DNA from: Alphaproteobacteria bacterium
Lineage (GTDB): Bacteria > Pseudomonadota > Alphaproteobacteria > Micavibrionales > Micavibrionaceae
Direction: 5' to 3'
Length of the DNA stretch: 64,000 nt
NCBI GenBank assembly: GCA_021775965.1
Contig: JAJFGV010000109.1
Location: forward strand, 1 to 64,000
Shown: positions 51,781 to 59,378 of the stretch, in pieces
Numbering within the stretch: the first letter of the stretch is position 1
How the letters are laid out: every line of letters starts with the position of its first letter
The notes under the pieces: model-generated
What the model saw: the letters and a program-made list of their open reading frames with translations, nothing else
Database searches by the model: none
Told to the model about the DNA's origin: nothing
Translations under genes and position numbers: made by a program

Positions 51781-52353
51781 CTATGAAGCTCTAGGCAGCT
51801 CAGTCTTTTCCAATACTTCAAAGATGCATTCAACCTGTCTCTCAGTGAATTTTTCTTCAAGAAACTTTGTTTCAGAGCTAACTGGTTTCAGATGAGTTGG
51901 TATCCATTCATCTTTTAGCCATGCATTTGCTTTTTTAAAAGCACCCTTTTTTCCAGTTGTTTCTCCATCAATCCTTGTTAAATAAACTCTTTCAGCGAGT
52001 GGCAAGGCTTGTTTAAAAAGTTCACTTCCCCCAATAACAAATAGCTCATTAGCGTTAGTTTCGATAGCAACCCTTTTAGCTTCTTCAATAGCCTCCTCTA
52101 AGCTGAGACAAGAAATTGCATCTTTGTAGTTACGTTCAGAGCGGCTAACTACAATATTTGTGCGTTGCTCAAGGGGAGCACCGAATTCGTTGATAATAGA
52201 TTCAAAGGTTTTTCTGCCCATGATCACGGGTTTATTCTTAGTTTGGTTTTTGAAATATTTTAATTCTTCTGGGATACGCCAAGGTAGCCCATCAGAGCAA
52301 CCAATACCCTGATCTTTGGCTCTAGCAACAATTATTGAGATGTGAGGTTCCAT
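51781..52353 (-). CDS. folA: Dihydrofolate reductase, AT-rich copy
   Basis: The 190-residue protein has the DHFR signature: IIVARAKDQGIGCSDGLPWRIPEELKYFK, IMGRKTFESI, NIVVSRS, and ELFVIGGSELFKQALPLAERVYLTRI. It reduces dihydrofolate made by ThyA. Longer than E. coli FolA (159). Base and codon use is far more AT-rich than mrp, folB and thyA around it, suggesting replacement by transfer while keeping the usual place next to thyA and hflK. Its promoter leaves a leader of only about 5 bases. Confidence 0.9.
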   Translation of the reverse strand: MEPHISIIVARAKDQGIGCSDGLPWRIPEELKYFKNQTKNKPVIMGRKTFESIINEFGAPLEQRTNIVVSRSERNYKDAISCLSLEEAIEEAKRVAIETNANELFVIGGSELFKQALPLAERVYLTRIDGETTGKKGAFKKANAWLKDEWIPTHLKPVSSETKFLEEKFTERQVECIFEVLEKTELPRAS

Positions 52354-52364
52354 GGATATATTCT

Positions 52365-52392
52365 ATTATAGAAAAGAAAAATTTAAAAGCAA
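52365..52392 (-). promoter_or_regulatory. folA promoter giving a near-leaderless transcript
   Basis: On the minus strand TTGCTT (52392-52387), 16-base spacer, TATAAT (52370-52365). The ATG at 52353 lies 12 bases past the -10 box, so the transcript would start ~5 bases before it, and no ribosome site fits. The box is exact. Confidence 0.55.
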
Positions 52393-52553
52393 TTTAAGAT
52401 TCGATATATTCTATTTTGAAGATTGTACAAGAGTAGTACAAGAGGTACACCTGTGCAGGAACATAGGTTTTCAACAACAATATACACAAAAAATGGGTGT
52501 TTATCCACTGCTAGTCGCAGAGATTAACAGCTTATATGGCTTTGGAGCTAATC

Positions 52554-52937
52554 ATGGAAAAAGACAGCCACATTAAACTTGTCCTGAAAGAGATGCGCGT
52601 GAATTTGCGCATCGGTTTGCTGCCGGGTGAAAAGGGCGCGGCGCAGCCGGTTGTGGTCAATGCTGCGCTTTATACCAAAGCCGGTGATTATCTTAAGGAT
52701 GTTAATGCCGATAGCATTATTAATTACGCGCCGATGTTTGAAATAGTCCGAGGCTGGCAGGAGCGCGAGCATACGGAGCTTATTGAAAGCTATATCAATG
52801 AATTTCTGGATGTGAGTTTTAAAGACCCGCGTATTGAAGCGTGCCGCGTGTCGATTTTGAAAGCCGAGATTTGCGAAGAGGCGGAAGGTGTTGGTGTTGA
52901 GGTGTTTATGAAGCGCGAAGACTGGCAGAAAAGTTAA
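52554..52937 (+). CDS. folB: Dihydroneopterin-aldolase-like protein
   Basis: From the ATG at 52554 (GGAG 6 bases before) the protein has 127 residues. It fits Fol[64 protein letters not shown] (with the conserved Glu), and [21 protein letters not shown]. It would make hydroxymethyldihydropterin for folate. It is convergent with thyA with a 4-base overlap. The catalytic Lys position cannot be confirmed by eye, so the call is moderate. Confidence 0.75.
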
Positions 52938-53728
52938 ACCGCGACCTTGCCCTTGATGTGGGGGTGGGCTTCGTAGCCGACCAGTTCGAAATCCTCGAAT
53001 TTGAAATCAAAGATATTGGTGACGTGCGGGTTTATGTGCATTTCGGGCAGCTTTTTGGGTTCGCGGGAAAGCTGGAGTTCCACCTGTTCGAGATGGTTGG
53101 AATATAAATGCGCATCGCCCAATGTATGGATGAATTCACCGGGCTGCAGACCTGTGACCTGCGCCACCATCATGGTGAGTAAAGCGTAAGAGGCGATGTT
53201 AAACGGCACGCCCAAAAATATGTCGGCGCTGCGCTGATACAGCTGGCAGGATAATTTGCCATCTGCGACATAGAACTGGAAGAAGCAATGGCAGGGCGGC
53301 AGCGCCATCTTGCCGATCTCACCAACATTCCAGGAACAGACAATCATGCGGCGGTCATCGGGGTTGGATTTGATGCGCTCTATGACGTTTGAAATCTGAT
53401 CGATTTTGTGTCCGTCAGCACTGGGCCATGACCGCCATTGATGACCGTAGACCGGGCCGAGATTACCGTCCTCATCAGCCCATTCATCCCAGATGCGCAC
53501 GCCGTTTTCTTTTAAGTACGCGATGTTGGTGTCGCCGGTCAGGAACCAGAGCAGCTCATGCACAATGGATTTCAGATGGCACTTTTTGGTGGTGACCATC
53601 GGAAAGCCTTCGGCCAGATCAAAGCGCATTTGATGGCCGAACACGCTGAGCGTGCCCGTGCCGGTGCGGTCTTCTTTCTTTGTGCCGTGGTCGCGCACAT
53701 GGCGCATGAGGTCTAAATACTGTTTCAT
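52934..53728 (-). CDS. thyA: Thymidylate synthase
   Basis: The 264-residue protein is of the E. coli length. RRMIVCSWN and catalytic Cys146 in PPCHCFFQF, with [17 protein letters not shown] and the folate/nucleotide segments [19 protein letters not shown] and [12 protein letters not shown]. It methylates dUMP to dTMP using methylene-THF, producing dihydrofolate for folA. Divergent from the tmRNA gene. Confidence 0.97.
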
Positions 53729-53837
53729 GGTGGCTATAATATGGGTGATTCACCTTCAAATATGAAGGTTTGCGTGTGAAATTGCCCACAAGAAGGGCAA
53801 AATATTTGAAAATTAAGGATTTTACTCTATAATTAGA

Positions 53838-54200
53838 GGTGCCGGCTTGTCCGGCTATGACGCTAAACGTTTGACGGAATAAGCGTTGTGGACCCGGGGG
53901 CAGTACCCGGCGGCTCCACCATTTAAGATCTGGAACCGAAGTGTTCTTAGAGTATGGGGCCGAAACAGGATCGACACACGTGGTAAAGGTTATAACTTGC
54001 GTTCGGCATTGTATCCGCCGTTATCGGGCTATTTTGATAGTTGCAAATGACAACTCTCAGTTCGTAGCATCCAATGACAACTCTGTTGTTGATGGAGAAG
54101 GTCGCATCGCTGCCTAATTTGGCAGTAGCGACAGCTACAAATTAATTCCTCGCCCTTAACCCGGTGAGGTGGGGCCCGCGGCGAGCCTCGCAACAGAATC
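53838..54200 (+). ncRNA. ssrA: Two-piece (permuted) tmRNA
   Basis: The acceptor piece comes first and ends at 53921 with an encoded CCACCA. The coding piece starts at 53956 (GGGGCCGAAACAGGATCGAC). GGGGCCG pairs with CGGCTCC as the 7-bp acceptor stem. The spacer 53922-53955 is removed in the mature form. T-stem CCGGG/CCCGG closes a GGCAGTA loop. The resume frame starts at GCA 54043 after TAGTT and ends at TAA 54115-54117, giving a 24-residue tag that starts ANDNS and ends GRIAA. AATGACAACTCT occurs twice, 27 bases apart, so the tag contains a 9-residue duplication. The outer ends are approximate. It tags stalled nascent chains for ClpXP. Confidence 0.92.
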
Positions 54201-54275
54201 GCCGCATTTTCTAAATGCGAACAACGCTACGCGTTGCTTCGCGGGCGCCTCGCAACAGAAGCCGCCCACTTTCTT
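54187..54275. repeat. Short repeats and hairpins after ssrA
   Basis: GCCTCGCAACAGAA occurs near 54185 and near 54246. GCATTT-TCT-AAATGC and GCGAACAACGC/GCGTTGCTTCGC form hairpins between them. A T-rich tract follows (CTTTCTTTTTT). This may end the ssrA transcript. Confidence 0.45.
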
Positions 54276-55551: not shown

Positions 55552-56055
55552 ATGACTGACGACGACGAAGATATTTTGCGCTATGACAAGATGGTTGAAG
55601 GCGCCCTGCGGGGCGTCGTGCGCCGCGCTGTCGAGGAAGTCATGGAACATGGCTTGCCCGGGGACCATCATTTTTACATTACATTTTTGACGGATTATCC
55701 CGGCGTTAAGATTCCTGATTATTTACGCGACCGTTATCCGGGCGAAATGACAATCGTTTTGCAGTACCAGTTTTCCGATCTTGGTGTTGATGATGAAAAC
55801 CTGAATGTCACTTTGTCGTTTAACAATGTGCCGGAGCGTTTGGTTGTGCCGCTGAGCGCGATCAGTATTTTTGCCGATCCGTCTGTGAATTTCGCGCTGC
55901 AGTTTCAGCCTTTGGGTGAAGAGATTGATGAAAGCGATTTTATTCTCGATGAGGATGAGCCGGATGATGACGGTAGCGGTGGCGGCGGTGCCAAGAAGAA
56001 GGCCAGCGATAAAACCGGAGAGGTTGTGTCTCTCGATAAATTCAGAAAAAAATAG
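55552..56055 (+). CDS. sspB: ClpXP adaptor, alphaproteobacterial SspB type
   Basis: The 167-residue protein has the SspB core at ~1-125 (YDKMVEGALRGVVRRAVEEV, GDHHFYITFLTDYPGVKIP, ALQFQPLG), a flexible acidic/Gly linker (EDEPDDDGSGGGGAKKK) and the C-terminal ClpX-binding tail VVSLDKFRKK. SspB binds the ssrA tag and delivers tagged proteins to ClpXP (established). Its gene lies 1.4 kb from ssrA, whose tag here carries a duplication; the adaptor must recognise that tag. Confidence 0.9.
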   Translation: MTDDDEDILRYDKMVEGALRGVVRRAVEEVMEHGLPGDHHFYITFLTDYPGVKIPDYLRDRYPGEMTIVLQYQFSDLGVDDENLNVTLSFNNVPERLVVPLSAISIFADPSVNFALQFQPLGEEIDESDFILDEDEPDDDGSGGGGAKKKASDKTGEVVSLDKFRKK

Positions 56056-58776: not shown

Positions 58777-59088
58777 CTACGCCTCGGCATGCACATAGGG
58801 CGCAACTTTTATTTTTCTGGACTGTTGGCGCATTTCACTGGAATCATGCCAAGCCTGCATGCGTAAGAGCATATCCATATCGAGGCTAAATGCCTTTTCT
58901 AGTCGTAGCGCCATTTCAGGCGAGAGCGCAGATTTTTCGTGCAGTAAGTCAGACAGAGTGGCACGGCGCACGCCCAGAACATCCGCGACCTTCGTGATGC
59001 TTAAGCCAAGCTCATCCAGTATCTCTGTTTTAATAAACGCGCCTGGGTGAGACGGTTTCATGCCAACTTTAATCGGTTTCTTTTTCAT
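58777..59088 (-). CDS. higA: HigA-type antitoxin
   Basis: The 103-residue protein has a helix-turn-helix of the HigA family: HPGAFIKTEILDELGLSITKVADVLGVRRATLSDLLHEKS, with LSPEMALRLEKAFSLDMDMLLRMQ. It binds HigB and represses the operon. Its start shares one base with the toxin stop, and the order toxin-antitoxin is usual for higBA. A C-terminal basic stretch follows. Confidence 0.93.
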   Translation of the reverse strand: MKKKPIKVGMKPSHPGAFIKTEILDELGLSITKVADVLGVRRATLSDLLHEKSALSPEMALRLEKAFSLDMDMLLRMQAWHDSSEMRQQSRKIKVAPYVHAEA

Positions 59089-59378
59089 TAGTGATAGTCC
59101 TCCAAATCCAGTAAATCGATATGCCCATCTTTTTCTATAAAGGTGATCCGCCAGTTACCAGATGTCGATACACTCCATGTATCCTGACGGTCGCCTGAGA
59201 GTTGATGGACCCGCCATCCTGGAGGGGCAGAGTTACGAAACGCTGCCATATCATCCGCCAGAATGAGCGCGGTGATGATATTTCGTATCCTGTTCACCAG
59301 ATCGGACCGAATGCCCTTGATCTGGTTATCTTCAATGAGGCGCTTTAATCCTCGGTGGCGAACGGAACGAATGATCAT
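59088..59378 (-). CDS. higB: HigB-type ribosome-dependent mRNA interferase
   Basis: The 96-residue RelE-superfamily toxin begins MIIRSVRHRGLKRLIED and has GWRVHQLSGDR, WSVSTSGNWRITF and HIDLLDLEDYH. It cleaves mRNA on the ribosome (established for the family). Transcribed first, from the operator at 59390, and overlapping higA by one base. The module lies just after tRNA-Arg. Confidence 0.93.
   Translation of the reverse strand: MIIRSVRHRGLKRLIEDNQIKGIRSDLVNRIRNIITALILADDMAAFRNSAPPGWRVHQLSGDRQDTWSVSTSGNWRITFIEKDGHIDLLDLEDYH

Follow-up and report, generated by a model that had tools for sequence, protein, structure and literature searches.

A second candidate SspB docking motif in the tmRNA tag of Micavibrio-like Alphaproteobacteria

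The peptide tag encoded by the tmRNA of Micavibrio-like bacteria contains the tripeptide Asn-Asp-Asn (NDN) twice, and the second NDN is under strong selection at the protein level. The tmRNA tag is the textbook example of an adaptor-dependent degron and is usually taken to combine a single adaptor motif with a single protease signal. The window, that is, the whole stretch of 64,000 nucleotides analysed here (Alphaproteobacteria bacterium, family Micavibrionaceae, assembly GCA_021775965.1, contig JAJFGV010000109.1), carries a gene that is probably an ordinary alphaproteobacterial two-piece tmRNA with the docking motif of the adaptor SspB present twice in its tag. The components are all of known kinds: alphaproteobacterial tmRNA, a degron of the ssrA type and SspB. 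The doubling is an old design; almost all relatives keep it and it recurs in the Rickettsiales, so that a function of the second motif is very probable.

The gene lies on the plus strand at 53829-54208 and was located by both ARAGORN and Rfam. Its match to RF01849 covers the full length of the model (positions 1-355) with 238.6 bits and an E value of 5e-68, the gathering score being 50, and RF04321 also matches it. The gene order is permuted, the acceptor piece with CCACCA (ending at 53921) preceding the coding piece; cutting into two RNAs and charging with alanine are predicted from the RF01849 class. The features are as follows.

53829..53921, plus strand: acceptor piece, ending in CCACCA (ARAGORN, RF01849 and sequence; mature ends putative)
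53922..53955, plus strand: intervening segment, probably removed in the two-piece tmRNA (placed by the RF01849 alignment)
53956..54208, plus strand: coding piece of tmRNA (ARAGORN and Rfam, whose 3' limit is used; start at about 53956)
54043..54045, plus strand: resume codon GCA (Ala) (ARAGORN and codon reading)
54046..54054, plus strand: first NDN motif, whose 43 codon changes over 103 doubled tags leave the amino acids unchanged
54064..54068, plus strand: GTAGC, 5' strand of the helix-5-like pairing (the Val codon and two bases of an Ala codon)
54073..54081, plus strand: second NDN motif, with 43 codon changes and 1 amino-acid change in 103 tags
54073..54114, plus strand: second tag unit NDNSVVDGEGRIAA, with the C-terminal ClpX-type end IAA
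54115..54117, plus strand: tag stop codon TAA
54134..54138, plus strand: GCTAC, 3' strand of the helix-5-like pairing
55552..56055, plus strand: sspB, ClpXP adaptor (PF04386, E 1.5e-43)

The tag, read in the frame from 54043 to the stop codon TAA at 54115-54117, is ANDNSQFVASNDNSVVDGEGRIAA and has 24 residues. An earlier note on this DNA had given the same frame and length, and both ARAGORN and the codon reading bear them out. The tag is indeed long, as that note held, single tags in the same order having mostly 12-15 amino acids. It shows the degron pattern ANDN...IAA, with both the Ala-Asn-Asp start and the small hydrophobic-Ala-Ala end. On a tagged protein the first motif reads AANDN: the charged tmRNA contributes one alanine and the resume codon the other. 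In the window the second NDN follows Ser (ASNDN) and not Ala, and the first unit ends in VAS. The gene sspB, placed by the note at 1.4 kb, was confirmed at that distance downstream. In the surroundings, genes for DHFR, FolB and thymidylate synthase (folate/thymidylate) occupy 51781-53728 directly upstream of the tmRNA gene, and two adjacent small genes on the minus strand at 58777-59378 resemble what we take to be a toxin-antitoxin pair of the HigB/HigA type.

The earlier note explained the long tag by a 27-base in-frame duplication. Its coordinates are all right, and AATGACAACTCT stands at 54046 and at 54073 as claimed, an exact 12-base match found nowhere else in the window. This match is what favours a recent duplication that enlarged the tag in the window genome, and it is there because both copies code for NDN-S. 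Over the 27 bases, however, 16 match, and beyond the first 12 only 4 of 15 do; Tandem Repeats Finder reported nothing for the repeat in the window tag. Of the 104 doubled tags, 5 share 12 identical bases between their two motifs; pairing motifs from different genomes gives an expectation of 2.4. Third-base identity between the two NDN is 1.64 of 3 positions within a tag, the same as between random genomes, and for the bases that follow the motif the agreement is 0.380 within a tag and 0.387 between genomes. Because the likeness within a tag equals that between genomes, the two motifs have long evolved apart and it is the coded protein that keeps them alike. Comparison with relatives, a check which the note itself had named, found the motif doubled family-wide (98 of 99 tags), so the doubling is older than the window genome. 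With copies that are unlike beyond the selected motif and a doubling present in relatives, a recent duplication was rejected and is almost certainly not the explanation. What is really repeated is the tripeptide NDN, usually within (A)ANDN.

The tmRNAs were read in 104 genomes from 39 genera of the GTDB family, in 142 genomes of the order and in a class sample of 385 genomes, of which 352 had a match. Two ND[N/D] motifs are present in all but one of the 99 readable family tags, and 97 have two exact NDN; the sole single-motif tag is ANDNFAQDEKVALAA (L002, genome G032). The family is Micavibrio-like according to named matches in a second collection, among the matches listed, and the nearest of those listed, Micavibrio sp. 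DHS20C02 (L209), has a tag identical to that of the window. Elsewhere in the order the tag is doubled in both genomes of family f7 and in one genus of f5, while the remaining f5 tags and those of f2, f4 and f6 are single and mostly of the 12-15 residues mentioned above. The spacing from motif to motif is 7-12 codons (9 in 68 of 104 tags), and this variation speaks for two separate binding motifs and not for one rigid longer motif. The residues before the second NDN are VAA in 72 of 104 tags, VVA in 14 and VAS, the window form, in 9; since these are mostly Ala-Ala, the tagged protein usually shows AANDN at both motifs. Candidates for a natural loss, possibly by decay of the second motif, are L124 (G104; ANDNNVAANGGFQESDLRLVA, second motif NGG), L096 (G058; ANDNIVLRVAANDDF..., second motif NDD) and the lone single tag of L002. 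In addition, ARAGORN starts at the second motif in L057 and L132, doubled tags which it calls single and which codon reading corrects, and it likewise begins the tag at the second motif in L194 and L211. Databases of tmRNA that are based on ARAGORN may therefore understate tag length in the Micavibrio-like group.

To follow selection on the motifs, codon changes were counted by parsimony along a tree of 130 tmRNA rows from which the tag had been removed. In the second NDN the three codons show 14, 17 and 12 changes, of which 0, 0 and 1 alter the amino acid; in the first NDN they show 16, 12 and 15, none of them altering it. The codon directly following the second NDN has 56 changes, 47 of which alter the amino acid. 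The rows were chosen by two ND[N/D] motifs, and only one readable family tag fails that criterion, so the choice of rows cannot produce the result. The second motif is almost certainly functional as protein. The conservation means that it matters as a peptide, and SspB as its reader is a further, proposed step. The second NDN lies 7-12 residues from the C-terminus (mode 11), and the only NDN of the order's single tags lies 8-11 residues from it in 27 of 28 cases, also with a mode of 11. The suggestion of the earlier note that two adaptor sites might exist thus gains support: the second NDN changes almost only synonymously, it stands at the C-terminal distance of the single NDN of relatives, and sspB is found in nearly all of these genomes, usually adjoining the tmRNA gene. 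Both motifs are treated here as candidate adaptor sites.

SspB (PF04386) is encoded in 125 of the 142 genomes of the order and in 91 of the 98 good ones, and in 22 of the 28 family loci in which both genes were located, sspB follows the tmRNA gene in the same orientation at a distance of no more than 4 kb. In the Neoehrlichia family, 35 of 37 genomes have SspB, and its gene starts as little as about 35 bases past the tmRNA match (for example in G537). The two genomes of that family without SspB, G534 and G545, are also the only two of the 37 without a tmRNA match, a double absence which reflects either incomplete assembly or joint loss. Among genomes with doubled tags outside the order, 12 of 13 have SspB, the exception being a metagenome-recovered assembly of 1.0 Mb. 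The window SspB ends in VVSLDKFRKK, a motif like that which binds ClpX, and a VVSLDxFRKK-like motif is kept in 102 of 109 SspB proteins. Solved relatives of the window protein are PDB entries 2nys, 2qas and 2qaz, which we take to be from Caulobacter and Agrobacterium (E 1e-31 and 2e-38, respectively). The presence of SspB was also considered as a predictor of doubling and is useless as such, because SspB is nearly everywhere and is equally present in relatives with single tags.

For the Val before the second NDN the codon is GTA in 87 of 116 cases; at other Val positions of the tag it is GTA in 17 of 193. The resulting GTAGC is complementary to a GCTAC about 16 bases past the stop codon. The downstream GCTAC is present in 71 of 87 rows with GTAGC and in 1 of 17 without it, and deviating rows pair with other letters (GCAGC with GCTGC, GCATC with GATGC, GTAGTT with AACTAC). 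Most rows share identical helix letters, and the tests used the deviating rows and pair counts. Of 5000 permutations of the partners among 16 of the deviating rows, 37 reached the observed pairing. Ten rows of one register have 98% of their cells paired, against 6-68% in slid-partner controls; they have two-sided changes in five cells, in two of the five pairs, several of the changed cells being from one genus, which leaves about three independent events. For the other register, 21 rows show no variation in the 5' strand of the helix. The loop of the helix would hold the whole second unit, 33-48 bases including the stop codon, and in the window a local GTAGC at 54125-54129 could compete for the GCTAC partner. 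Helix 5 of tmRNA has a loop that contains the stop codon, and its earlier support by base changes was weak (PMC1168896); the pairing described here fits helix 5. What is new is a covarying helix between the Val-Ala codons before the second motif and the RNA after the stop codon. It adds comparative support to helix 5 and reveals a place at which a tag can grow without breaking the RNA.

This helix accounts for the Val codon and not for the NDN codons. Another idea is that RNA structure, and not the peptide, preserves the second unit. In its favour, the covarying helix takes in the Val-Ala codons immediately preceding the second NDN, and GTA is preferred as given above. But the NDN codons are outside the helix, their third bases vary freely while the amino acids are fixed, the tag region shows weak consensus pairing (-1.0 kcal/mol) and RNAalifold found no structure for the whole region; we consider this idea very unlikely.

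Doubled tags are also met outside the order, for example in L148 (ANDNVAFVAANDNNVVEVRAAA) and L152 (ANDNFVACNDNYGDAISVAA), and those of Candidatus Neoehrlichia, among the matches listed, are L246 (ANDNLVAANDNYGYANLAAA) and L259 (ANDNIVAANDNYSYANLAAA). Of 28 tags read in the Neoehrlichia family, 15 are doubled and 13 single, and many other Rickettsiales families have doubled tags with varied spacing. Five doubled tags of the Neoehrlichia family (L356, L360, L368, L371 and L372) have NDD first and NDN second (ANDDFVAANDN...) and offer a natural test of which motif matters.

As to origin, the first unit of L004 and L010 (ANDNFAPVAVAA) is the whole tag of L098, which belongs to another family of the order, and family f5 has the single tag ANDNFAPATALAA alongside the doubled ANDNFAPMTAA-NDNGTIAAVAA. 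Tags start and finish with Ala codons, and we infer that an exchange between the last Ala codon of one tag and the first of another could have joined two tags in frame with loss of the stop codon. The second unit is most likely an old insertion of a second tag in the loop of helix 5 and not a recent local duplication. On a tree of the short tmRNA sequences, which has weak support, the single and double states need 4 changes, and this fits one gain with losses or several gains alike. Lengthening by loss of a stop codon is not supported, the sequence after the stop codon of single-tag relatives coding for no NDN. A second resume site at the second unit, prompted by the ARAGORN starts in L057 and L132, is not favoured either: the six bases before the second unit (GTAGCA, GTAGCC, GTCGTA) are unlike those upstream of the true resume codon (ATAAAT, ATAGTT), and the register varies.

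The working proposed here is that of a degron with two docking sites for SspB, of which the second stands at the distance for delivery to ClpX, and we consider it likely; that SspB reads both motifs has a similarly good chance of being right. The tagged protein would end in A-ANDNSQFVASNDNSVVDGEGRIAA, tagging adding both motifs at once. SspB would dock at either NDN, and the C-terminal IAA would be handed to and gripped by ClpX. The second NDN would be at the canonical delivery distance, and the first, beside the resume codon, would be an extra, outlying docking site. Two sites may give a higher effective affinity for SspB, or one may be free while the other is blocked, and delivery to ClpXP would be faster. 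In Escherichia coli, SspB binding depends on AANDENY and degradation on ALAA (PMC8512704). A bolder form of the proposal is a bivalent degron in both Micavibrionales and Rickettsiales, perhaps built more than once, in which a second complete tag in the helix-5 loop provides two SspB sites that cooperate, either through the two grooves of one dimer or through two adaptors on one ClpX ring; we put it forward tentatively, as a possibility that is more doubtful.

It is rather unlikely that only the second NDN is a working SspB site and that the first is kept because tmRNA needs that sequence by the resume codon. Such a division would suit the canonical C-terminal distance of the second NDN, the abutting of the first motif on the resume codon in every tag and the five ANDDFVAANDN tags of the Neoehrlichia family, which alter the first motif and leave the second intact; the 43 codon changes in the first NDN without any amino-acid change, however, mean that it is held as protein and not as RNA letters, and L096 keeps the first motif and alters the second. 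The first unit, which ends in VAA or VAS, might instead be a complete tag that becomes a new C-terminal degron once the second unit is clipped off. The identity of the first unit of L004 with the entire tag of L098 from another family would agree with this, as would the conserved V and A before the second NDN, but the RNA helix better accounts for the V and its GTA codon, the first unit of the window ends in VAS, and we know of no protease here that clips at that place. This last reading is highly improbable, and two docking sites for SspB are preferred.

The tag of the two-piece tmRNA of Caulobacter crescentus is AANDNFAEEFAVAA. It shares with the window the permuted two-piece gene, the Ala resume codon, the ANDN start, the hydrophobic-Ala-Ala end and the presence of SspB and ClpX in one cell, but it has one NDN and is shorter. 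The Anaplasmataceae tags ANDNFVFANDNNSSANLVAA and ANDDFVAANDNVETAFVAAA, presumably from Ehrlichia and Anaplasma, have a second (A)NDN after the first and an SspB encoded beside the tmRNA gene; unlike the tag here, their spacing is 7 codons and not 9, and they belong to another order with a possibly separate gain. The E. coli system of AANDENYALAA and SspB likewise has the adaptor motif at the start and the ClpX signal at the end, but with one adaptor motif, a one-piece tmRNA and a gammaproteobacterial SspB. Engineered tags AANDENYSENYALAA (PMC8512704) resemble the window tag in a longer distance from the outer adaptor motif to the ClpX signal; they are synthetic, however, and their insert has no complete second docking motif.

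No description of a conserved doubled adaptor motif was found in the open-access literature searched, and an earlier mention elsewhere may exist. A tmRNA database of 2025 holds 97,179 sequences with 10 as the commonest tag length, and the available part of that paper does not mention doubling (PMC11915505); doubled tags as raw entries must already be in such databases. Here, then, is a natural and strictly conserved two-motif tag in about 40 genera and in another order, with which the relation between adaptor valency and the speed of proteolysis after ribosome rescue becomes directly testable.
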